Below are positions 1-29,099 of a DNA stretch of 32,211 nucleotides, one piece after another (position 1 is the first letter of the stretch; the number at the start of each line of letters is the position of its first letter). A program made the position numbers and the translations under genes. The notes below the pieces were generated by a model. It worked only from the letters and a program-made list of their open reading frames with translations. It was not told the DNA's origin and did no database searches. The stretch lies in NCBI GenBank assembly GCA_003388555.1, contig QQVD01000032.1:1-32211 (forward strand), read 5' to 3'. This stretch comes from Acidobacteriota bacterium. Its GTDB lineage: Bacteria > Acidobacteriota > Thermoanaerobaculia > Multivoradales > Multivoraceae.

Positions 1-1641
<1,641 letters not shown>

Positions 1642-9568: not shown

Positions 9569-9942
9569 CGAGTTCGGTCTCTCTTCGAGGGAGCTGTGGT
9601 CGTCCCCGGTGGCGCGAGGCGCCGCCGTCGCCGTTCCGGTCTCGTCAGTCCTCGGCCTCGCTTGCGAGCGAGCCCCGTTCCGTCTCTCGGGCCCGCCAGG
9701 CCCCGAACCGCCTCGCCACGTCGGCTCCCTGGCGGGCGCCCGCTGGCGGCGACCGCAGGTGATCTCCGCCGCGCGGAGCGCCTCGTCGGCACCGACTCCG
9801 ACCTCTCGTCGCCTCGGGGTCCGCTCGACACTCTACAATGGCCGCACCGCCTCGGTTCGAGCACAATGGTCGCGACGGCGCGACGCCCGGGACGAGAGTT
9901 TCGGGGACGATCGGGCAGAGTGATTCCAGCCCTCCTGGAGCG
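9569..9942. other. Divergent intergenic region, methyltransferase / sigma factor
   Basis: A 374-base gene-free stretch between divergent genes. It holds a 6-bp hairpin (CTCGCT and AGCGAG, 9657-9672, loop TGCG) and, near its right end, TACAAT at 9834-9839, a good -10 hexamer. No convincing -35 is seen 16-18 bases upstream. The TACAAT overlaps an in-frame ATG at 9838, so that ATG is probably untranscribed or in the promoter; the sigma factor is therefore started at 9943. Nothing else is recognised. Confidence 0.5.
9834..9839 (+). promoter_or_regulatory. Possible -10 element for sigma/anti-sigma operon
   Basis: TACAAT matches the sigma-70 -10 consensus at five of six positions, about 100 bases before the chosen sigma-factor start. 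No good -35 was found, so this may be coincidental or belong to an alternative sigma factor's promoter. Confidence 0.3.
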
Positions 9943-10497
9943 ATGCAAGATCCGGAGATCGTAGCCCTCCTCGAGGGTCGCCAGGACGCCGTAGCAGCCG
10001 TCAGGAGGTGGATCCGGGGGGCCTTGACCCCGTTCCGCAACGCGTTGCACCGCGAGCTGGAGGATCTCGAGCAGGAGGTCCTGGAAGCCCTGCTCGAGGG
10101 CATCCGCGAAGGGAGCTACCGTGGCGACAGGGGTCTTGCGCCGTACGTTCGGTCGCTCGCCCACAACCGCTGCGTCGATCGGATCCGATATCACGCTCGC
10201 AGGACCTGGGTCGATCTCGGCGACATCGAAGCGGATCCCCGATTCGTGGCCCATGGAGCCCAGCAGCGACTCGGCGAGCTGGACATCGTCCGCAAAGTCG
10301 TGGCAGGGATGCCGGAGGAGTGCAGGCAACTCTGGGCACTGCTGCAGGAGGGCTACCGGTACGACGAGATGAGCGACCGGATGGGCATAGCCCCAGGTGC
10401 CCTTCGCGCCCGGGTCATGCGGTGCAGGCAGAAGGCTCTGGCCGAGAGGGAGAGACTTCGGCGGAACGCGTCACGAAATCCGGAGTCGGACGACTGA
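9943..10497 (+). CDS. ECF-like RNA polymerase sigma-70 family factor
   Basis: Alternative sigma factor of 184 aa directing RNA polymerase to a dedicated promoter set. Region 2 spans about residues 30-85, with LEQEVLEALLEG, then YVRSLAHNRCVDRIRYHARR (the core-binding / -10 recognition helices). Region 4 spans about 110-165, with MPEECRQLWALLQEGYRYDE and a helix-turn-helix DRMGIAPGALRARVMRCRQ. No region 1 or 3 is present. Start ATG 9943 is preferred over the in-frame ATG 9838 because CTGGAG precedes it and the extra 35 residues look non-coding (Pro/Gly/Arg, overlapping a -10-like hexamer). The following gene, 4 bases away, is a zinc-finger anti-sigma factor, the usual partner. Confidence 0.88.
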   Translation: MQDPEIVALLEGRQDAVAAVRRWIRGALTPFRNALHRELEDLEQEVLEALLEGIREGSYRGDRGLAPYVRSLAHNRCVDRIRYHARRTWVDLGDIEADPRFVAHGAQQRLGELDIVRKVVAGMPEECRQLWALLQEGYRYDEMSDRMGIAPGALRARVMRCRQKALAERERLRRNASRNPESDD

Positions 10498-10501
10498 GAG
10501 G

Positions 10502-11089
10502 ATGAAGCCGCGGAAACGGTCCCGCTCGGTGAGGGACCAGACCTCCGACGCCGCGGCAAGAACGACCCCTCGAGGTTGCGAAGCAGTGGAAGACGGAACG
10601 AGAGAGTCGCGGCCCTGGGACGGCCCACTCACCTGCAACCGGGTGCGCCAGGGTCTGCCCTGGCTGCTGAACGGCTCCCTCGGAGAGCGCGCCGAGACAC
10701 GTCTCTACGACCACATCGCCTCGTGCGCGGAGTGTGAGAAGGAGCTCGGCTCGACTTCGGAGCTCTGGCTCGACCTGTCGACGGCTCGGCAGGAGCTCCT
10801 GTCGGGGCCGGCGACCAGCGAGGGCGCATCGGATTCGCAGCGTTGGCGATCTCTCCGACTGATCGCGGCGGGTCTCGGGGCCGCCGCCCTGGCTCTGGGG
10901 ATCTACATCGGGCTCGATGGCACCAACGAGACCTCGTCGTCGCCGGAGGGGGCCACGGCCGAGCTGCTGGAGACGCCGGGAGAGGCGCGCGAGGGGCTGC
11001 TGTTCGCCAGCGACTTCGAGAGCGGCGACCTGTCGATGTGGTCGACGGAGGTCGCCTCGCCGATGAGGCCCGACGACGACTTGCGCTAG
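10502..11089 (+). CDS. Membrane anti-sigma factor with zinc finger and external FESGD motif
   Basis: Expected to hold the adjacent sigma factor inactive at the membrane. ATG 10502 lies 4 bases after the sigma stop; an earlier in-frame ATG (10397) is inside the sigma gene. In the 195-aa product an N-terminal basic stretch precedes an anti-sigma zinc finger (Cys45 and H71-x3-C75-x2-C78, in CNRVRQGLPWLLNGSL and HIASCAECEKEL), followed by one membrane helix at about 118-138. The extracytoplasmic tail is only about 55 residues and contains LLFASDFESGDLSMWS (about 166-181). The same motif ends the secreted beta-helix protein at 16642. This is unusual for an anti-sigma factor, whose sensor part is normally larger; the tail could be a truncated sensor or a localisation motif. 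Confidence 0.85.
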   Translation: MKPRKRSRSVRDQTSDAAARTTPRGCEAVEDGTRESRPWDGPLTCNRVRQGLPWLLNGSLGERAETRLYDHIASCAECEKELGSTSELWLDLSTARQELLSGPATSEGASDSQRWRSLRLIAAGLGAAALALGIYIGLDGTNETSSSPEGATAELLETPGEAREGLLFASDFESGDLSMWSTEVASPMRPDDDLR

Positions 11090-11185: not shown

Positions 11186-11188
11186 AAC

Positions 11189-11425
11189 AACCAGAGCCCG
11201 AGGCGTAGGCCGAGGGCGACGAAGGGGAGGGAGTGCCGCTCGCGGCAGTCCGGACTCAACCAGAGCCCGAGGCGTAGGCCGAGGGCGACGAAGGGGAGGG
11301 AGTGCCGCTCGCGGCAGTCCGGACTCAACCAGAGCCCGAGGCGTAGGCCGAGGGCGACGAAGGGGAGGGAGTGCCGCTCGCGGCAGTCCGGACTCAACCA
11401 GAGCCCGAGGCGTAGGCCGAGGGCG
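11189..11425. repeat. 69-bp tandem array, 3.4 copies, hairpin-forming unit
   Basis: Copies begin at 11189, 11258, 11327 and 11396. The first three are identical over all 69 bases as read; the fourth stops after about 30. In plus-sense RNA each unit can fold: GCCC (11196-11199) pairs with GGGC (11214-11217), enclosing a symmetric GA/GA internal loop, then GGC/GCC and loop GTAG. Further on are TGCCG/CGGCA with loop CTCG (11234-11247) and the palindrome AGTCCGGACT (11247-11256). The truncated last copy retains exactly the complete first hairpin, giving four such hairpins separated by three linkers. Function is unknown. Confidence 0.85.
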
Positions 11426-16641: not shown

Positions 16642-18627
16642 ATGTCGAAATCCGGGCCCGGCAACGCCGGCGCAAGCCATCGTGGACGACGTCGGCGCTG
16701 CGTCGTGGTCAGCTGGCTCGCGGGTCTCGCCTGCATGCTCCTCGCGACCGTGCTCGAGGCCGCCCCTCAGGTCTACGTGCACCATACGGATGGCACCTGC
16801 GGCGGCCTCAGCCCCTGCTACCCGAACATCGATCAGGGCGTTCAGAACGTCGACAACGGCGGTGAGGTCATCGTGCTCTCCAACGGAGCAGACGCCGTGC
16901 TGCAGAACCGGGGAAAGACCGGACTGACGATTCGCGGCGACGTGCCGACGCGGACCATCACCGGCGGTGTGAACATCACCGGCGGCACCACCACCGGTTG
17001 GGAGTTCCGAGATCTCATCTTCACTGCCGGGATGCTGGTGAAGAACATCGCGACGTCGCTGACGATCGAGAATCTGACCACGACGGGCATGCAGATCGGT
17101 TCGTTCACCCAGGACACCAACGCCGCCATCGTGGTGCGCAACGTCACGATGGGGGGCAATCCGCAGGCGCTCATCTCGATCATCTCCGATCCCGGGGTCG
17201 ACATCGGCGGCTCGATCACCATCGAGGACTGCAACGACCTTCGCGCGATCAACATCATCAGCCTGGTCGCCGTCGGCGATCCCGCCGACATCACAGCGAA
17301 CGTGACCATCGCGAGGAACGACGTCTCCCACGGTCCGCGAATCATCGTGAACTCGAACGGCCCGGTCGGGACTGGCGAGATCAGCGGCACGATCCGTTTC
17401 GAGGAGAACACGATGTCGCCCTCGAACGGCAAGTTCGGTGTCAGCCACAACGGCAACGCGTCGGGCCCGATAACCGGCCACGTCATCGTTCGCGACAACG
17501 ACGCTGCCTGGCTCGCGGTGGTCTCCACCAACTCCCTCGGCGGTTCGATCGGCCAGGTCACTGTGGAACGCAACATCCTGCATGCGGTGGAGATCTCGTC
17601 TCGCGACGCGCCGCTCTTCGGACCGATCCTGGTGGATGACAACGAGATCGTCGACCGCGGCCTGGTGGAGCCGGTGCGGATCCAGGTGGACGGCGAACCG
17701 ATCCTCGGCAACGTGACGATCACCGACACCACCGGTTCCGCAGCCTTCATCGCGGTGCAGAACTTCGACACCAACGGTTCGGGCACCTGGCAGGTGGTCG
17801 ACAACGACGCCCTGCGCCTCGCGGTCGACTCCACCGGCGGATCGATCGCCGGCCCCATCACGGTCTCCGGCAACGTCCTGCCCCCGGCCAACGCCCCGAA
17901 CTCGTCGTTGACCGTGCGGACTCTGGCCGGTGGCGATCTCGGTCCCGGTCTCATCTCGGACAACGTGCTCGACACGATCCAGTTCGGGGTCGACGGTTCG
18001 CTGGCGGCGAACTTCAGGACGACGGCCAACGTGGTACGGGAGAACGCCAGCTTCATCGCCTCCGGAGCGGTGGGCCCCGGACTGCACATGGTCGACGGGA
18101 ACGACATCGACGGGCCCACCTACTTCGACGGAATGACCACGGACGCATCCTTCAATCGCTTCGGCGGGTTCGTGACCCGAGTGGCCGGGGCCTTCGTCGA
18201 CGCGACCAACAACTGGTGGGGGTGCAACGAAGGTCCTGGCGAGCCGGGCTGCGAGAGCTCGACTCCGAGCCTGCCTTCGGACCCGTGGCTCGTCCTGCGC
18301 AATCAGATGCTCTGCACCTCGGTGTCGAGCGGGACCATCGCCTTCGATCTCCTCGAGGCGTCGAACGGTACTCAGCCGGCTGGCAACAACACACCGGGAC
18401 TCGTCGATGTCTCCACGACCATAGGCACCGTGATGCCCGCCTCGGTTGCCCTGGTCGGGGGAGCAGGGCAGAGCCAGGTCGACTGGCCGGACGCCACCAT
18501 GCCGACCGTGTCGACACAGCTCGATTCCGAGGTGGTCGAATGGTCCGGAGAGTGCCAGGAGTTGATCTTCTCGGACGGGTTCGAGTCCGGCGATACGACC
18601 CTCTGGAGCACTTCCCAGGGCCGCTGA
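16642..18627 (+). CDS. Secreted parallel beta-helix protein with C-terminal FESGD motif
   Basis: Exported protein of 661 aa. A basic N-terminus and hydrophobic core (about residues 21-39) form a signal peptide, probably cut near LEA-AP. From about 45 to 530 there are many short strands separated by Asn/Gly/Asp turns (patterns such as 'I.GNV.I.DN', 'ITVSGNVL', 'VTIARNDV'), typical of right-handed parallel beta-helices, a fold used for polysaccharide binding or cleavage. DGTCGGLSPCYPNI and NNWWGCNEGPGEPGC supply probable disulfides. No lyase or hydrolase catalytic signature was identified. The last 24 residues include IFSDGFESGDTTLWS. ATG 16642 is used; the ribosome site is weak (AGAGGACCAAG). 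It lies between glycosyltransferase genes, suggesting a link to the surface glycan. Confidence 0.82.
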   Translation: MSKSGPGNAGASHRGRRRRCVVVSWLAGLACMLLATVLEAAPQVYVHHTDGTCGGLSPCYPNIDQGVQNVDNGGEVIVLSNGADAVLQNRGKTGLTIRGDVPTRTITGGVNITGGTTTGWEFRDLIFTAGMLVKNIATSLTIENLTTTGMQIGSFTQDTNAAIVVRNVTMGGNPQALISIISDPGVDIGGSITIEDCNDLRAINIISLVAVGDPADITANVTIARNDVSHGPRIIVNSNGPVGTGEISGTIRFEENTMSPSNGKFGVSHNGNASGPITGHVIVRDNDAAWLAVVSTNSLGGSIGQVTVERNILHAVEISSRDAPLFGPILVDDNEIVDRGLVEPVRIQVDGEPILGNVTITDTTGSAAFIAVQNFDTNGSGTWQVVDNDALRLAVDSTGGSIAGPITVSGNVLPPANAPNSSLTVRTLAGGDLGPGLISDNVLDTIQFGVDGSLAANFRTTANVVRENASFIASGAVGPGLHMVDGNDIDGPTYFDGMTTDASFNRFGGFVTRVAGAFVDATNNWWGCNEGPGEPGCESSTPSLPSDPWLVLRNQMLCTSVSSGTIAFDLLEASNGTQPAGNNTPGLVDVSTTIGTVMPASVALVGGAGQSQVDWPDATMPTVSTQLDSEVVEWSGECQELIFSDGFESGDTTLWSTSQGR

Positions 18628-19745: not shown

Positions 19746-21068
19746 GTGCGCGCGCGCGTCCTCGTGGTCGGCGTCGGACCACTTCCCTTCGAGGCCACTC
19801 GTTCGAATCCCGCCGTCGGGATCCGGTCGTGGCAGCTCGCCGACGCTGCGAGCCGCTCCGGAGCGCAGGTCGATCTGGTCTTGATGCCGGCGCCCGGCGC
19901 CTACGGCGAGCACACTCCCAGGGCCGTCGAAGAGAGGTCCGGGGTACGGATCCGACGCCTGCCCCTTGGGAGCTTCGACGACTGGCGGGCGGTCGCCGCG
20001 GCCGCCGGTGGCCAGGCCCACGACGCGGTGATCGGCGCCACGATCCACGGCGCCTTCGCCGCGGCCCGCGCCGTGGTGCGGGGAGGCGCAACGCCCTTCT
20101 GGGCCGATCAGTTCGGCCACGCCATGGCCGAGGCTCAGGTGAAGGCCCACAGCGACGAAGAGGACCGGGTGCTGCGCTACTTCCGGCGTCGGGTGCGTCG
20201 GGTCTCGGCGATCGCCGACCGCTTCTCGGTCGTCTCCAGGTCGCAGCTCTTCGCCTGTGTCGGAGAGCTCGGTCTGCTCGGTCGCCTGAACAGGCACACC
20301 TTCGGAGAGCGCCTGGTGGAAGTCGTACCCTGTCCGGTGGTCGACACAGAGTCGCTGCGGCCGAGCGAGTCCGATCCGGACCAGCAGGCCGAATTCGTCG
20401 TGCTGTGGAGCGGCAGCTTCAACGCGTGGTCCGACGTCGAGACTCTCTTCACCGGTGTCGACGGTGCGATGCGGCGCGACCCTCGCATCCGCTTCCGCTG
20501 CACCGGGGGCGAGGTGCCCGGCCAGTCGACCGGCGCCTACCGCCGCTTCGCCAGTCTCGTCGCCGCAAGCGACCAGAGAGAGCGCTTCGAGATGCTCGGC
20601 TGGGTCGATCCCGCAAAGCTGCAGTCGGTGCTCACTGGTTCGGACCTCGGTCTGGTCGTCGAGCACCAGAGCTACGAGGGAGAGCTCGGCAGCAAGAACC
20701 GTCTGCTCGAATGGGCGACGTGTGGGCTGCCGATCCTCTGTAATCCGATCGGGGACTTTCCTGCCGAGCTGACACGGCGGGGTGGCGCGCTGTCGTTCAC
20801 GGCCGGGTCGGGCGAAGAGCTCGCCGACCGTCTCGTGTGGGCGGCGGGGAACCGTGACGCACTGCAGCAGCAGGCGTGCAGGGCTCGGGAGCTCGTTCTG
20901 CAGTCCTATCGGATGGAGGACACGACGTCGGCTGTGGTCGCGTGGTGTAGTTCCCCGTGCCGCGCCGGTGACGCGGCTCTCGTCCGGCGCCGGAGCCTTC
21001 TCGCCTCGCTGGCAGACTGGGCGGAGGCGCTGCGCCGAGGCTTGGCTGCCACTAGCCGGCCTTCCTGA
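19746..21068 (+). CDS. GT4-like glycosyltransferase, paralogue of the gene at 14951
   Basis: 440-aa GT-B type glycosyltransferase. Start GTG 19746 is 2 bases after the GT2 stop, giving VRARVLVVGVGPLPFEA. It shares with the minus-strand enzyme at 14951-16405 the PLP(F/T)E start, the segment WADQFGHAMAEAQVKA, the segment FSVVSRSQ, the 'GRLNRHTFG' region and the C-terminal half VVLWSGSFNAWSD ... ELGSKNRLLEWATCGLPILCN, so the two are paralogues. It lacks that enzyme's basic C-terminal tail. Its 3' end overlaps the convergent methyltransferase gene by 17 bases. Donor and acceptor are unknown. Confidence 0.82.
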   Translation: MRARVLVVGVGPLPFEATRSNPAVGIRSWQLADAASRSGAQVDLVLMPAPGAYGEHTPRAVEERSGVRIRRLPLGSFDDWRAVAAAAGGQAHDAVIGATIHGAFAAARAVVRGGATPFWADQFGHAMAEAQVKAHSDEEDRVLRYFRRRVRRVSAIADRFSVVSRSQLFACVGELGLLGRLNRHTFGERLVEVVPCPVVDTESLRPSESDPDQQAEFVVLWSGSFNAWSDVETLFTGVDGAMRRDPRIRFRCTGGEVPGQSTGAYRRFASLVAASDQRERFEMLGWVDPAKLQSVLTGSDLGLVVEHQSYEGELGSKNRLLEWATCGLPILCNPIGDFPAELTRRGGALSFTAGSGEELADRLVWAAGNRDALQQQACRARELVLQSYRMEDTTSAVVAWCSSPCRAGDAALVRRRSLLASLADWAEALRRGLAATSRPS

Positions 21069-22137
21069 GCACCACCAGATCCTGGTTGGCGGCCACACCG
21101 TCGACGAACTCGACGACCTCGAAGTAGCGCCCCCACTCCCGGCGCACGTAGTCGCGGGAATGGATCACGTCGATGTAGTAGGTGTCGTTCTCGATCACCT
21201 CGTCGAGCGCGACGTTGCGTCCGGTGATCACAAAGCCGTCGCGTTCCACCTGCCGAACGAGGGCCCCCGGAGGCCGGTAGAGTCCCATCTGGGACAGGCC
21301 CTGGATCGACATCAGGAGCAGCGCCCCGGGAGCGGCGACGCGGTGCAGCTCGTCCAGCCAGGCGAACTGATGCGCCTCGCTCAGGTGGGTGAACACCGAG
21401 ATGCCGACCAGGAGATCGAAATGCCCCGACGGCAGTTCGGTGGGTGGCTGCAGCGGCAGGCGCTCGAAACGCCCGTGAGCCAGGTTCTCGCGACACCAAC
21501 GGATGTTGTCGGGGTCGATGTCGGTGCCCCAGAGCTCGACATGGGGCCACCTGTGGAAGTGACGTGCGAATCGTCCCGATCCGCAGCCCCAGTCCAGGAC
21601 CCGTCGGCGGGTGGCCAGGGTCGCTTCGTAGCGCTCACCGAGGAGCGTGTCGAAGCGGTCGACCAGCGATGCACCGCCGAGCAGGTAGTTCGTCGAGTCC
21701 TCCGCTCCGATGACTCGACTGATCCGCACTCCGTCAGGGACCGGGATGCTGTCGTCGGCCGGGTTGGGGAACGACCACGAACGGAGCCGCGATTCGAGTG
21801 TCGATTCGCCTTCGGGGCAGAACTCGAGACGGGCGAGGCCATCGCGGAAGAGGCCGTCGGCGCTGCCGGTCCGGCAGCGGAAGCGCGCTCTGGCGGCTTG
21901 TGGCAGCGGCCAGAAGTGGGAGCCGAGGTCCGGGCTCGGCTGCGGGAACTCGATCTCCTCGAACGGCCTGCCTCCGACCAGGAAGGTGCCGGTGGCCGTC
22001 TCGTCCGGGGGGATCGCCCAGCCGGTGATCTCCATGCCTTCGGCCACGGTGACTCGGTCGACGAGCCACTGGATGTTCTTCGCGCAGGCTCGCAGATAGC
22101 GCTCTTCGAGCGCCCGATCGGCATCGTTGCTCGGCAC
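21052..22137 (-). CDS. SAM-dependent methyltransferase with N-terminal beta-sandwich-like domain
   Basis: 361-aa protein. The C-terminal half is a class I methyltransferase: motif I VLDWGCGSGRFARHF (about 182-196), acidic loop WGTDIDPDNIRWC, motif IV HFDLLVGISVFTHLSE and LHRVAAPGALLLMSIQG. The first 150 residues hold a separate domain (MEITGWAIPPDETATGTF and the following FLVGGRPFEEIEF), a beta-rich pattern like the 'GWA' sugar-associated modules found next to glycan methyltransferases and glycosyltransferases. Start is GTG 22137, with no strong ribosome site. It converges on the upstream glycosyltransferase with a 17-base overlap of coding ends. Methylation of a surface glycan or its precursor is a reasonable inference. 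Confidence 0.82.
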   Translation of the reverse strand: MPSNDADRALEERYLRACAKNIQWLVDRVTVAEGMEITGWAIPPDETATGTFLVGGRPFEEIEFPQPSPDLGSHFWPLPQAARARFRCRTGSADGLFRDGLARLEFCPEGESTLESRLRSWSFPNPADDSIPVPDGVRISRVIGAEDSTNYLLGGASLVDRFDTLLGERYEATLATRRRVLDWGCGSGRFARHFHRWPHVELWGTDIDPDNIRWCRENLAHGRFERLPLQPPTELPSGHFDLLVGISVFTHLSEAHQFAWLDELHRVAAPGALLLMSIQGLSQMGLYRPPGALVRQVERDGFVITGRNVALDEVIENDTYYIDVIHSRDYVRREWGRYFEVVEFVDGVAANQDLVVLRKAG

Positions 22138-22271: not shown

Positions 22272-22997
22272 CTACGGGGCCATCGTGCGGAACGAAGCGA
22301 ACTCGTCGACGTAGAAGCTGCCGTTCTCGCCGGCGTTGAACGGGTTGATCGCCAGGTTGCCGAGGCGAACGAACTGGGTCGGGATCTCGAAGTTGTTGGC
22401 CGGAGCCGTCGAGTAGGCGGGATCGCCGTGCGGCGGGCAGGCTGCGCCGACCGCGACGACTGCGAGACCACCCTCACCGGCGCCGGCAGGGGTCGTCGAG
22501 TTCTCGATGTAACCACAGATCTTGCGCGGGTTGTTGTCGGGCACGCCACCGGTGGTGAAGTACTGGGCCGCGGTGCCGACGATGCCGCACTGATTCGTCA
22601 TCAGCGTCATGCGCACCCCGGGATACTCGGAGTTCGCACCACCGAAGACGGCGAAGACACGTGCCGGGAACACCGGGATGTTGGGGTTCAGCGGGCACGG
22701 GTTGCCCGGGTTGTTCGGCCGCGGGTTGTTGGCGTAGGCGCCGAACAGGCTGAAGCGGAACTGCGCGCTCGAGGTGAGGCCGAGCTGGTTCGGGTCATAG
22801 AGGAACTCGAACCGGTAGACAGTCTCGCTGTTGGGGGTGTCGTCCTGCACGTAGGCGACCGACGTGTTGTCGTGGATCACCTCGAGACCGTTGGTGGTCC
22901 CGTTGAGGGCTGCGGTGGCGTTGACGTCGAGCGAGTCTGCGCCGGCGAACGACGCCGCCAGCGCCAGCACGGCGAGGGCGAGGAGGATGCGCTTCAT
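22272..22997 (-). CDS. Small secreted protein of unknown function
   Basis: 241-aa exported protein I do not assign to a named family. Residues 1-20 (MKRILLALAVLALAASFAGA) are a clear signal peptide. The mature part is Asn/Pro/Gly-rich with short beta-strand patterns (ETVYRFEFLYDPNQLGL, AQFRFSLFGAY, FYVDEFASFRTM) suggesting a beta-sandwich like a lectin/LamG fold. Four Cys sit in loops (NPCPLNP, NQCGIVG, KICGYIE, GAACPPHG), possibly two disulfides. AGGAGA lies 7 bases before ATG 22997. It is a single-gene transcript: its own terminator follows at 22165-22203 and 176 bases separate it from the upstream operon. It may be an abundant envelope or extracellular component; that is inference. Confidence 0.75.
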   Translation of the reverse strand: MKRILLALAVLALAASFAGADSLDVNATAALNGTTNGLEVIHDNTSVAYVQDDTPNSETVYRFEFLYDPNQLGLTSSAQFRFSLFGAYANNPRPNNPGNPCPLNPNIPVFPARVFAVFGGANSEYPGVRMTLMTNQCGIVGTAAQYFTTGGVPDNNPRKICGYIENSTTPAGAGEGGLAVVAVGAACPPHGDPAYSTAPANNFEIPTQFVRLGNLAINPFNAGENGSFYVDEFASFRTMAP

Positions 22998-23173: not shown

Positions 23174-24604
23174 TCAGTTACCCGAGAGGTAGCCGAGCGC
23201 TTCCAGCTGCTTCCTGGCTTCTTCGTCGAGCTCGATCGCGGGCGGCGCGGAATCGGTCGGCGCAGCGGCACGCGCCGCACGCTGGAGGATGTCGCGGTAG
23301 ACATCGAGCTCTCCGTCTCCGTCGGAGGTCTTGGGATTTCGTTCCTCGGGGTCCGAAAGCAGGTCGTAGAACAGCTCGACGTCGTCTGCTCTGGAGATCA
23401 GCTTCTTCCGCTGCAGGACGAGGGCCGAGGCATCCGGGCCGTAGGCTGGAGACTGAGCAAGGATCGGACGACGTGGGCAGCGCACCTCGCCGCCGGCCGA
23501 TTCTCGGGCGAGGCCCGCCAGGCTACGTCCCTGCATCGAATCGGGTTGGGCGACGCCGACCAGATCGAGGACCGTCGGGGCGACATCGATCAACCCCACC
23601 TCGCAGTCGCTCTCTCCGCCATCCGGCAGATTCGGGCCGCTGAAGAGCAGAGGAACCGAGAGGAGCTCCTCGAACATGGTATGGCCGTGGCCGATCCCCC
23701 AGAGATCTCTCGGGTCCCCGCCGAGCTCACGCCCGATGGTCGCGTGGTCCCAGAACTCCTCACCATGGTCAGAGGTCACGACGACGAGGGTCGAATCGCC
23801 GTCGGGCAGGCCGGGGAGCGCGTCGAGCAGTCGGCCGACCTCCTCGTCGAGGTAGCGCAGGGCGCCGTCGTAGAGGGCGACCTTGTGCTCGCGGTAGGCG
23901 ACGAAGTCCGGATCCGACAGGTTCTCGACTCTGGAGTGCCTCCAGGCGCGATGTATGTCGGACCTCGGCCCGTGCTCCGGGTCCACCGGGAAGTACTCGA
24001 AGAACTCCGCCGGCGGTTCGATGGGCTCGTGCAGGTCCATGTACTGGAGGTAGAGGAAGAACGGCCGGTCGTCGCCCTCCGCCAGCCACTGCAGAGCCGC
24101 GTCATTCAGCTCCGTAGCGCTGCGTCGCGTCGAGGTCGCCTGGTCGAAGCCGTCGTGGAAACGACCGCGGAGGAACGGGTTCGCCGACAGGAGCATCGTT
24201 CGGTAGCCGGCAGACGAGAGCGCCTGCGCCAGAGTGGTCGCTCCAGGCTGGATGTCGCTCGGCGGTGTCTTGGCGAGGTTGCGATCGAAGTCCCCGCTCA
24301 GGCCCGCGAGATGCTGCGAAGGGAGCAGAGAAGTCAGGAGCGTGGCGGTGGCGGGGACGGTCCATGGGGAGTGGGTGTAGGCGCGCGAGAACACCACGCC
24401 GCCGTCGGCGAGTGCGTCGAGATTGGGCGTCGTCGGCCGCTCGTATCCCCAGCGGCCGACATGGTCGGCCCGCAGAGTGTCCAGGCAGAGCACGACGACG
24501 TTGAGTCTGCGCTCCGGCTCTGGAGGCGCCGGTCGGCAGCTCCCGACCAGCATGGCGAGGACGCAGCCTACGAGCAGGACCCTCGCCGCCTGCCCAGCGG
24601 TCAA
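23174..24604 (-). CDS. Sulfatase-like (alkaline phosphatase superfamily) lipoprotein without formylglycine motif
   Basis: 476-aa exported hydrolase or transferase. The signal ends in lipobox VGSC (Cys about 23). The sulfatase/phosphatase fold is shown by NVVVLCLDTLRADHVG, RPTTPNLDALADGGVVF, the metal-ligand segment VVVTSDHGEEF and GHGHTMFEELLSVPLLF. At the nucleophile site, where sulfatases have C/S-x-P-S-R, it reads T82-V-P-A-T86, so the formylglycine Cys/Ser and the Arg are both absent; Thr could be the nucleophile, as in phosphoethanolamine transferases and some phosphodiesterases. The tail RKQLEALGYLSG is typical of this subgroup. The start is TTG 24604, overlapping the upstream gene's TGA, with GGAAGAGG before it. 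It is last in the murQ operon. Confidence 0.82.
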   Translation of the reverse strand: MTAGQAARVLLVGCVLAMLVGSCRPAPPEPERRLNVVVLCLDTLRADHVGRWGYERPTTPNLDALADGGVVFSRAYTHSPWTVPATATLLTSLLPSQHLAGLSGDFDRNLAKTPPSDIQPGATTLAQALSSAGYRTMLLSANPFLRGRFHDGFDQATSTRRSATELNDAALQWLAEGDDRPFFLYLQYMDLHEPIEPPAEFFEYFPVDPEHGPRSDIHRAWRHSRVENLSDPDFVAYREHKVALYDGALRYLDEEVGRLLDALPGLPDGDSTLVVVTSDHGEEFWDHATIGRELGGDPRDLWGIGHGHTMFEELLSVPLLFSGPNLPDGGESDCEVGLIDVAPTVLDLVGVAQPDSMQGRSLAGLARESAGGEVRCPRRPILAQSPAYGPDASALVLQRKKLISRADDVELFYDLLSDPEERNPKTSDGDGELDVYRDILQRAARAAAPTDSAPPAIELDEEARKQLEALGYLSGN

Positions 24605-25665: not shown

Positions 25666-26711
<1,046 letters not shown>

Positions 26712-28091: not shown

Positions 28092-29099
28092 TCACGGCGT
28101 CGATCGGGGTACCGGCGAGAGATCGATCGCCGCGCGCACGTGTCCGCGCGAACGCTCGAGCCGGTGCGCCGCCTCTTCGGCGTCGACCCCGGCGAGCCCC
28201 ATGACGATGGCGCGCTTGACGTCGCCGCCGGCATCCCTGAGCAGCCGGCGGGCGGCCTCGGCGTCGACCGAGGCGGCGGTCGCGACGATGCGCTCCGCGC
28301 GGTCGCGCAGCTTGGCGGAGCCGGGGCGCAGGTCGACCATCAGGTTGTCGTAGGTCTTGCCGAGGCGGACCATGGCGGCGGTGGTGATCGCATTGAGCGC
28401 CGCCTTGGTCGCCGAACCGGCCTTGAGCCGGGTCGAGCCGGTCAGCACCTCGGCCCCGGTGTCCAGGGCAATGACGAGATCGGCGAGCCCAGCCAGTTCG
28501 GGCTGCCGCTCGAGCGAGGCGCAGGTGAGCAGCACGGTGCGTGCTCCGCGCTCTCGCGCGGCGGCGAGCGCCGCGGCCGGGAAGGCGGTGACCGAGCTCG
28601 CCGAGATCCCGAGCACGAGGTCGCCGGCCGATGTCTCTTCGCCGAGCTGTCGGCCGGCCCGCTCGTCGTCCTCGGCGCCCTCGGCGGCTCGGAAGACCGC
28701 CTGTTCGCCGCCGGCTATCGCCGCCCGGATGCGCTCCGGGGCGGTGCCGAAGGTGGGCGGACACTCCGCCGCCTCGAGCACCGCGAGGCGGCCGCTGGTG
28801 CCAGCGCCGACGAGGATCGCGTCGCCGCCCCGCTCGAGGGTCTCGGCGAGCCAGCTCGCGGCTGTGGCGAGCGGTCGCCTCTGTTCGAGGGCGCGCTCGA
28901 GGCCGACGCGATCTTCTTCGAGCACCAGGCGGACCACCTCTTCGGCGTCGAGGCGATCGAGATCGCGGCTGCGAGGATTGCGCTGCTCGGTCGGTAGGGT
29001 CGCCCACCGCGACGATCGCGAGGCCCGCGACGCTGGCGTGTCTTCTGTGCCTTCGGTGCCTTCGGTGCCTTCGGTGCCTCTGTCTCGATCTGCGCTCAC
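28092..29099 (-). CDS. murQ: N-acetylmuramic acid 6-phosphate etherase
   Basis: Cytosolic lyase that cleaves the D-lactyl ether of MurNAc-6-phosphate to give GlcNAc-6-phosphate and D-lactate. The core begins at LPTEQRNPRSRDLDRL (about residue 35), the MurQ hallmark; the SIS sugar-phosphate site is VGAGTSGRLAVLEAAECPPTFG (two halves, about 97-118, with the conserved Glu in ECPPTFG); ISASSVTAFPAAAL and STRLKAGSATKAALN follow. The start is uncertain: GTG 29099 has a strong GAGAGGAGAG site, while ATG 29153 would add 18 residues. Either way an N-terminal extension of about 33 residues contains repeated Gly-Thr-Glu. It is first gene of the minus-strand operon to 23174 and diverges from the kinase gene. 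Confidence 0.92.
   Translation of the reverse strand: MSADRDRGTEGTEGTEGTEDTPASRASRSSRWATLPTEQRNPRSRDLDRLDAEEVVRLVLEEDRVGLERALEQRRPLATAASWLAETLERGGDAILVGAGTSGRLAVLEAAECPPTFGTAPERIRAAIAGGEQAVFRAAEGAEDDERAGRQLGEETSAGDLVLGISASSVTAFPAAALAAARERGARTVLLTCASLERQPELAGLADLVIALDTGAEVLTGSTRLKAGSATKAALNAITTAAMVRLGKTYDNLMVDLRPGSAKLRDRAERIVATAASVDAEAARRLLRDAGGDVKRAIVMGLAGVDAEEAAHRLERSRGHVRAAIDLSPVPRSTP
29046..29081. repeat. 9-bp tandem repeat at the murQ N-terminus
   Basis: Four units of about GGTGCCTTC (first and last imperfect), coding on the minus strand for repeated Gly-Thr-Glu in a disordered extension before the MurQ core. Same period as the array near 25700. Confidence 0.85.

Follow-up and report, generated by a model that had tools for sequence, protein, structure and literature searches.

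Why should an anti-sigma factor carry near its C-terminus the same short motif as a secreted protein? The question is raised by a 32,211-nucleotide stretch of Acidobacteriota DNA (contig QQVD01000032.1), here called the window, in which a putative zinc-finger anti-sigma factor and a secreted protein both have an FESGD motif close to the end (Table 1). The initial annotation took the motif for a sorting or processing tag of secreted proteins, whose handling the anti-sigma factor could sense by competing for the same handling protein, or alternatively for strand 1 of a LamG-like domain that had since been lost. Both motifs are where it placed them, although the anti-sigma tag covers 10997–11044 rather than 11003–11044. 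Our own reading, to which we give a probability of roughly 47%, is that the tag acts as a donor strand by which secreted proteins are clipped onto a lectin-like acceptor, whose availability the anti-sigma factor reads.

Table 1. Features of the window that bear on the argument
Feature	Position	Strand	Basis or remark
ECF-type sigma factor	9838..10497	+	219 aa from ATG at 9838; Sigma70_r2 2.2e-5, TIGR02937 1.2e-12
Putative zinc-finger anti-sigma factor, tagged extracytoplasmic tail	10502..11089	+	195 aa; zinc motif, hydrophobic helix, tag
Zinc-finger part of anti-sigma factor	10634..10735	+	zf-HC2
Single hydrophobic helix of anti-sigma factor	10853..10915	+	By eye, approximate
Anti-sigma tag LLFASDFESGDLSMWS, proposed donor strand	10997..11044	+	14 residues from tag to protein end
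Client: secreted protein with C-terminal tag	16642..18627	+	Signal-peptide-like start (crude predictor), tag
C-terminal tag of client, LIFSDGFESGDTTLWS	18562..18609	+	
Methyltransferase, downstream of acceptor gene, same strand	21052..22137	-	PF13649 1.1e-12
Stand-alone secreted jelly roll without first strand, proposed tag acceptor	22272..22997	-	241 aa; sequence, alignments, predicted fold
Sulfatase-family protein, upstream of acceptor gene, same strand	23174..24604	-	PF00884 2.6e-42

The genome to which the window belongs (6.8 Mb in 74 contigs) contains 100 matches to the DNA pattern for TTYGARWSNGGNGA, compared with five for the same pattern written backwards; a stricter tag pattern matches 104 times against zero backwards, and the anti-sigma tag peptide used as a query also gives 104 matches (E ≤ 10). 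The tag motif is real and above chance. At the loci fetched, 92 ORFs contain the protein motif, and its recurrence at the ends of secreted proteins, which the initial annotation had put forward, is borne out: 86 of the 92 end within eight residues of the motif, and in 74 exactly four residues separate W[ST] from the stop. The remaining ORFs comprise four with an internal motif, one with 13 residues behind it, and the anti-sigma factor with 14. Two tag ORFs at contig ends, L039 and L077, may be a single gene. In L047 of this genome and in L252 the tag lies near the N-terminus, apparently right behind the signal peptide.

The consensus is [LIV]F-x-DGFESGD-x-[ST]-x-WS-x-x-x-P, in which F5, F9, E10, G12 and W17 are present in 86 of 86 tags and D7 in 85. 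Tag and end together amount to about 19 residues, not to a folded C-terminal beta-sandwich domain of the T9SS kind. A crude predictor finds a signal-peptide-like start in 68 of 87 tagged ORFs. Among 60 tagged ORFs (those of 100–620 aa, minus the anti-sigma factor and two internal cases), FG-GAP, beta-helix, reprolysin, M14, sulfatase and S8 families are represented, and the columns invariant across all 60 are those of the tag. The client in the window, whose C-terminal sequence is LIFSDGFESGDTTLWSTSQGR, matches no Pfam or NCBIfam family at E ≤ 1, and its earlier naming as a beta-helix protein is not confirmed.

Of 396 genomes searched across the phylum, those rich in the strict pattern belong to the order of the window, with the sole exception of G389, from another family of the class (81 matches); the reversed pattern gives 0 to 3 matches per strand. 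Counts in 72 genomes of the order range from 0 to 152, and each of the 21 genomes of one genus of the window's own family (g4) has 0 to 3. The exact consensus is found in at least 107 stretches of public genomes, and the matches listed are mostly from metagenome-assembled genomes labelled Thermoanaerobaculia, Holophagae or Acidobacteriota, with a few other labels. Among open-licence papers in PMC, no title concerned the tag motif, and no paper paired donor-strand complementation with an anti-sigma factor.

What kind of element is the tag? It is very probably beta-strand 1, together with a conserved turn, of a concanavalin (ConA)-like jelly roll. A segment of the form [FL][ES]...W immediately precedes the jelly roll in all ten copies examined inside large proteins, and a small secreted protein of G434 (L387) consists of a signal peptide, IFADGFESGDTSAWS and the jelly roll. 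By contrast, 23 stand-alone secreted relatives begin, past the signal peptide, just behind the place equivalent to the tag; 15 of these sequences were aligned with ten complete ones. In an AlphaFold2 model of a complete domain (pLDDT 92.3), residues 2–7, inside the tag-equivalent segment, form a strand; the model aligns with 2zzj at Z 19.2 (rmsd 2.6, 193 residues aligned, 12% identity). The model of the window's acceptor has a pLDDT of only 74.8 and is likewise of predicted ConA-like fold (Z 13.7, rmsd 3.2, 183 residues aligned).

The aligned ranges, from which alone the strand pairing was judged, differ at the start. They are 1..230 for the complete model versus 22..229 for the window model with 2zzj, 21..262 versus 55..261 with 6kcw, and 19..253 versus 60..253 with 4le3_A. 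With these entries and with 6kcv_A, 6kzk_A and 9k7o_A, the alignment of the window model begins about 21–41 residues later than that of the complete one, while both reach the end; in four PL7 or heparin-lyase entries (7nm6, 7ncz, 7p25 and 3ina) the first strand of the complete model is unaligned too. The best structural matches of both models are ConA-like jelly rolls and lyases, and the Ig-like pilin fold is not among the matches listed. NCBIfam gave three single weak matches for 26 jelly-roll members, the best at 0.0056. By predicted fold the jelly roll belongs to the ConA-like superfamily, a membership that suggests sugar binding by the acceptor. It is well supported that the acceptor fold is without one strand and that the donor segment is equivalent to the missing one. 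The proposal of a first strand from a lost LamG-like domain thus holds for the strand, which is that of a ConA- or LamG-like jelly roll; the remainder of the domain, it seems, was not lost but is the product of a separate gene.

How the two halves came to be separate is indicated by family f88, in eight tag-poor genomes of which we classified 30 of 57 pattern matches, 24 with the core motif and six without it. Sixteen of the 24 core sites run into a jelly roll within one ORF, six are C-terminal tags, one runs off its contig and one is apparently unrelated. In the window's own genome, a jelly roll is found in one of the 92 tag ORFs and 86 of the tags are C-terminal, so that fused and C-terminal forms stand at 16/6 in f88 versus 1/86 here (p = 2e-13). 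Family f88 also contains gene pairs in which a tag-ending gene is followed, after 2, 3, 4, 4 or 37 nt (starts assigned by eye), by a gene for a jelly roll with a signal peptide and without the strand; L422 is a sixth, probable pair. Four of the six pairs, whose jelly rolls carry an insert, look orthologous, and the number of independent events is accordingly smaller. The natural reading is that the domain was split between strands 1 and 2 and that its halves still meet, and this split architecture is well supported. In one protein (L418, in G408:C35) the N-terminal part is a strandless jelly roll and the C-terminus bears a tag; donor and acceptor share one chain, and head-to-tail chains are conceivable.

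The tags could instead be leftovers of lost jelly-roll domains, with the stand-alone jelly roll sufficient in itself, as the homology of the tag to strand 1 and the strandless copies in some tag-poor genomes would allow. However, selection is needed to keep six residues near-invariant in 86 tags whose proteins are otherwise dissimilar, and the pairing of tag genes with acceptor genes also speaks against mere remnants. We consider this explanation very unlikely.

The acceptor gene of the window is the only match in its genome (E ≤ 1e-4) to the strandless protein, for which the small secreted protein next to tagged anti-sigma factors served as the query in 72 genomes of the order. Among genomes with 30 tags or more, 23 of 25 have the plain strandless gene; among those with fewer, 3 of 46 do (p = 2.6e-13, kinship ignored), or 3 of 25 when genus g4 is left out (p = 1.1e-8). 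Counting forms with an insert as well, the second figure becomes 8 of 46; with SLH-like forms added it becomes 13 of 46 (p = 2e-7), or 13 of 25 without g4 (p = 3.6e-3), the unclassified G414 being omitted from these counts. Insert forms occur in G408, G434, G438 and probably G418, at 5–14 pattern matches, and in G439 at one; forms with an SLH-like part occur in G405, G420, G410, G425 and G422, at 2–17. The correspondence has exceptions on both sides: tag-rich G328 (65 tags) and G427 (47) gave no strandless match, and G258 (2 tags), G214 and G162 have the gene with hardly any tags. G214 and G162 are the two tag-poor genomes with the gene among 22 others of the class, and the distant, tag-rich G389 has the plain form. 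In L367, L368, L379, L382 and L458, all from tag-poor genomes, the strandless domain is joined to an SLH-like part (f89, f5/g222) or a dockerin-like part (G162), both named by eye.

The initial annotation had also asked whether a processing enzyme accompanies the motif, and one family does so in part. Exosortase PF09721, the family that our protease counts cover, has matches in 22 of the 26 genomes that reach 30 tags and in 11 of the 46 below that number (p = 3.4e-3 with g4 left out). A short match to it is present in 33 of the 72 order genomes and absent from all 21 g4 genomes, and four genomes with 33–92 tags (G404, G413, G437 and G433) have no match. On the wide count the co-occurrence of the acceptor is no tighter than that of the exosortase; co-occurrence alone therefore cannot decide between them, and the weight of the argument falls on the fused and paired forms. 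The wider strandless count also slightly lowers the odds of complementation of the acceptor by the tag in trans, which we regard as probable.

These counts, together with the position of the tag at the extreme C-terminus, would fit a sorting signal at which a sortase-like protease (an exosortase or another) cuts, with the anti-sigma factor as its regulated substrate. Yet no hydrophobic helix or basic cluster stands behind the tag, which usually has four residues to the stop; the four tag-rich genomes without an exosortase match are mirrored by the 11 that have one with few tags; and at 16 of the 24 core sites in f88 the supposed tag continues into a folded domain. A processing tag is therefore distinctly improbable, and we rejected it as the main reading, keeping it as a disfavoured second choice.

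The preferred reading, a donor strand with a separate acceptor, brings us back to the anti-sigma factor. Its gene starts 4 bp behind the sigma gene, and it has the zinc motif H-x3-C-x2-C (as HIASCAEC) as well as an adjoining ECF sigma gene, the features by which zinc-finger ECF anti-sigma factors are recognised; we call it one, with the binding and inhibition of sigma putative on sequence grounds. The zf-HC2 match (residues 45–78, E = 0.0025) scores 18.3 bits, below the Pfam cut-off of 22.2. Its tag keeps five of the six near-invariant residues, D7 being replaced by Ser, and a model built from 86 other tags finds it among 2,008 ORFs at E = 1.6e-6, compared with 0.24 for the best match to a reversed ORF. 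ORFs at the 13 loci fetched from the 19 other zf-HC2 matches of the genome have no tag. Relatives of the sigma factor occur in 45 of 59 order genomes (E ≤ 1e-6), and the whole anti-sigma factor has no homologue in the 23 other genomes of the family (E ≤ 1e-3). The window also contains a perfect 69-bp tandem repeat (11188–11425, 3.4 copies, 100% matches), beginning about 100 bp past the anti-sigma stop, and 9-bp tandem repeats at 25692–25745 (6.0 copies) and 29038–29079 (4.7 copies), the former encoding GDT repeats at the 3' end of a serine-hydrolase-like ORF (named by eye).

Whether other zinc-finger anti-sigma factors bear the motif had been a further question of the initial annotation, and they do. 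At 45 of 50 listed places that were fetched, the tag is carried by six of 43 distinct anti-sigma-like ORFs, four found by the tag model and two (in G038 and G002) by pattern only. The five outside the window's genome are in G377, G344 (family f4), G407, G038 (f2) and G002 (own family, by profile), so that the six span three families. The G377 tag scores E = 9.6e-4 and that of G038 E = 1.5, and that of G002 has no model match; G344 and G002 have two tag copies each, and a seventh, degenerate tag, SVSFEGGLHNTDL, is found in G001. Across the five rows of an alignment that leaves out G002, no tail column is invariant except those for F, E and W of the tag. Behind the W follow 9 to 23 residues, unlike in most secreted clients, and some secreted tagged proteins elsewhere have such tails too. 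No full jelly-roll or LamG-like domain lies behind the tag in any of the six, and a lost LamG domain was therefore rejected for the anti-sigma factor; the motif is thus neither regularly followed by such a domain nor absent from the homologues.

Untagged relatives often show a different beta-rich part at the C-terminus, and some have other ends. The beta-rich part, LPAGxLxxGExxLELxG...YxLxVxP, is common (L143, L146, L178 and others) and may be a sensor domain of its own. Three anti-sigma-like ORFs of f88 (L195, L198 and L200) end by eye in ..RAG..v.LgeGFsv.s.a.f.iei, which resembles the insert in the jelly rolls of that family (L414–L432) and is a second hint of an anti-sigma factor displaying a piece of a secreted assembly. 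In a tree of 30 sigma factors, the tagged label needs four changes, at least three of them by well-supported branches. Independent origins of the tagged form were nevertheless rejected as a conclusion, since a single clade stands in the AU test (p = 0.062, with G002 and seven other rows left out).

The genes of the tagged anti-sigma factors and of the acceptor are also linked. In all seven genomes with a tagged or degenerate-tag anti-sigma factor, the strandless gene is on the same contig, at distances of 85, 195, 219, 1,146, 6,258, 11,186 and 12,194 nt. It lies directly downstream of the anti-sigma gene in G344 and G407, adjoins it directly in G001 and is one ORF further on in G002; in the window it is 11.2 kb away on the opposite strand. 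By comparison, none of 12 genomes with only untagged anti-sigma factors (G258, G429, G424, G433, G336, G395, G411, G250, G413, G406, G412 and G416) has a plain strandless gene within 20 kb, a contrast weakened by fragmented contigs, as in 11 of the 12 the gene is on another contig; in G250 it is 181 kb off. No sigma factor of this family was found in 17 other strandless-gene loci fetched (3.7 to 11 kb; G001, G377 and G038 apart). Upstream regions of the sigma and acceptor genes share no gapped promoter-like motif clearly above shuffled sequences (6 vs 3.5, 2 vs 2.1 and 2 vs 1.8).

An anti-sigma factor might have gained its tag by recombination and have no use for it. The tagged anti-sigma factor is a single case in its own genome, and apart from the tag its tail is not conserved; a single origin of the tagged form is compatible with the tree; and two of the six tags rest on the pattern. 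But six anti-sigma factors in three families have kept the tag while the rest of the tail diverged, and acceptor linkage is 7/7 versus 0/12. A tag without a role here seems highly improbable to us.

The same linkage bears on another explanation, in which the anti-sigma tail and the acceptor rebuild one lectin-like ectodomain, a non-covalent sensor of the RsgI type, and a sugar ligand or a pull exerted on envelope polysaccharide serves as the signal instead of the amount of free acceptor. The ConA-like fold is one of carbohydrate-active proteins, the acceptor has sulfatase and methyltransferase neighbours and a glycosyltransferase gene nearby, and it adjoins the anti-sigma gene directly in G344, G407 and G001. 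According to PMC12203970, RsgI anti-sigma factors do bear carbohydrate-sensing ectodomains. Taken alone, however, this explanation does not account for about 86 ORFs that share the strand against one acceptor gene in the window's genome, and we hold it to be unlikely.

For the preferred reading, with clients and anti-sigma factor drawing on one acceptor, we infer binding in trans, attachment to polysaccharide, competition and the direction of the signal as follows. Clients would be exported by Sec, and their C-terminal strand would complete the acceptor jelly roll in trans by donor-strand complementation, about 86 ORFs, mostly secreted, donating strand 1 and one small secreted protein supplying the rest of the domain. 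The completed lectin-like acceptor, encoded among genes of polysaccharide type, may then hold the clients at extracellular polysaccharide. The anti-sigma tail would display the same strand outside the membrane, where free acceptor could clip onto it in competition with the clients, and occupancy of the tail would set whether sigma is held or released, as a feedback on the acceptor and its locus. Clients that drain the acceptor would leave the tail bare, and release of sigma, presumably by proteolysis, would yield more acceptor; the opposite sign is equally possible.

In outline this agrees with the earlier idea of sensing by competition for a handling protein, a candidate for which is encoded in the same window, the trans binding and the sensing being the conjectural parts. 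We rate a sensing role of the anti-sigma tag as evenly balanced. The fullest form of the proposal, a proteome-wide split-lectin display in which some 86 proteins share one acceptor and the sigma/anti-sigma pair gauges free acceptor so that supply follows client load, is tentative, the odds being somewhat against it. If true, the system would be a new route of sorting or display, relying on an uncleaved strand and on a separate, shared protein that makes up the rest of its domain; it would also be a sensor in which one piece of the monitored structure is built into the anti-sigma factor. It would further give a testable function and a candidate receptor to a tag that many genomes of the Thermoanaerobaculia type have on dozens of proteins not otherwise related, and strand and acceptor could serve as a natural peptide-tag pair.

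Parts of this arrangement have counterparts in known systems. In pili of the chaperone-usher and Mfa/FimA (type V) kinds, a fold short of one strand is completed by the strand of another protein, as is proposed here; the fold here, however, is ConA-like, and many secreted proteins, unrelated to one another, carry the donor as a C-terminal tag. In the RseA/DegS envelope stress response, the PDZ domain of the protease reads the C-termini of outer membrane proteins, and RseA has no such C-terminus. There too the C-termini of exported proteins are the currency of an anti-sigma pathway, but in the window the anti-sigma factor itself bears the tag. The complete domain shares its overall predicted fold with ConA-like polysaccharide lyases and lectins (PL7, PL14 and the glucuronan lyase 2zzj), at 12% identity and with a stand-alone form that is without strand 1. 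PEP-CTERM and MYXO-CTERM are likewise lineage-specific C-terminal signatures on dozens of secreted proteins, and the former is linked to exopolysaccharide (PMC11980579); they are tripartite, with a motif, a helix and a basic cluster, whereas the present tag lacks the latter two and has its homologue in one strand of a folded domain. RsgI of Clostridium thermocellum, as described in PMC12203970, is a membrane anti-sigma factor that senses carbohydrate outside the cytoplasm, for example through a carbohydrate-binding module, and its signal starts when the first beta-strand of the periplasmic domain separates. The likeness lies in a membrane anti-sigma factor with an extracytoplasmic part, and the parallel in strand separation is suggestive only; RsgI carries a whole, covalent sensor domain, whereas the anti-sigma factor of the window carries one strand, with the remainder of the domain a separate protein.
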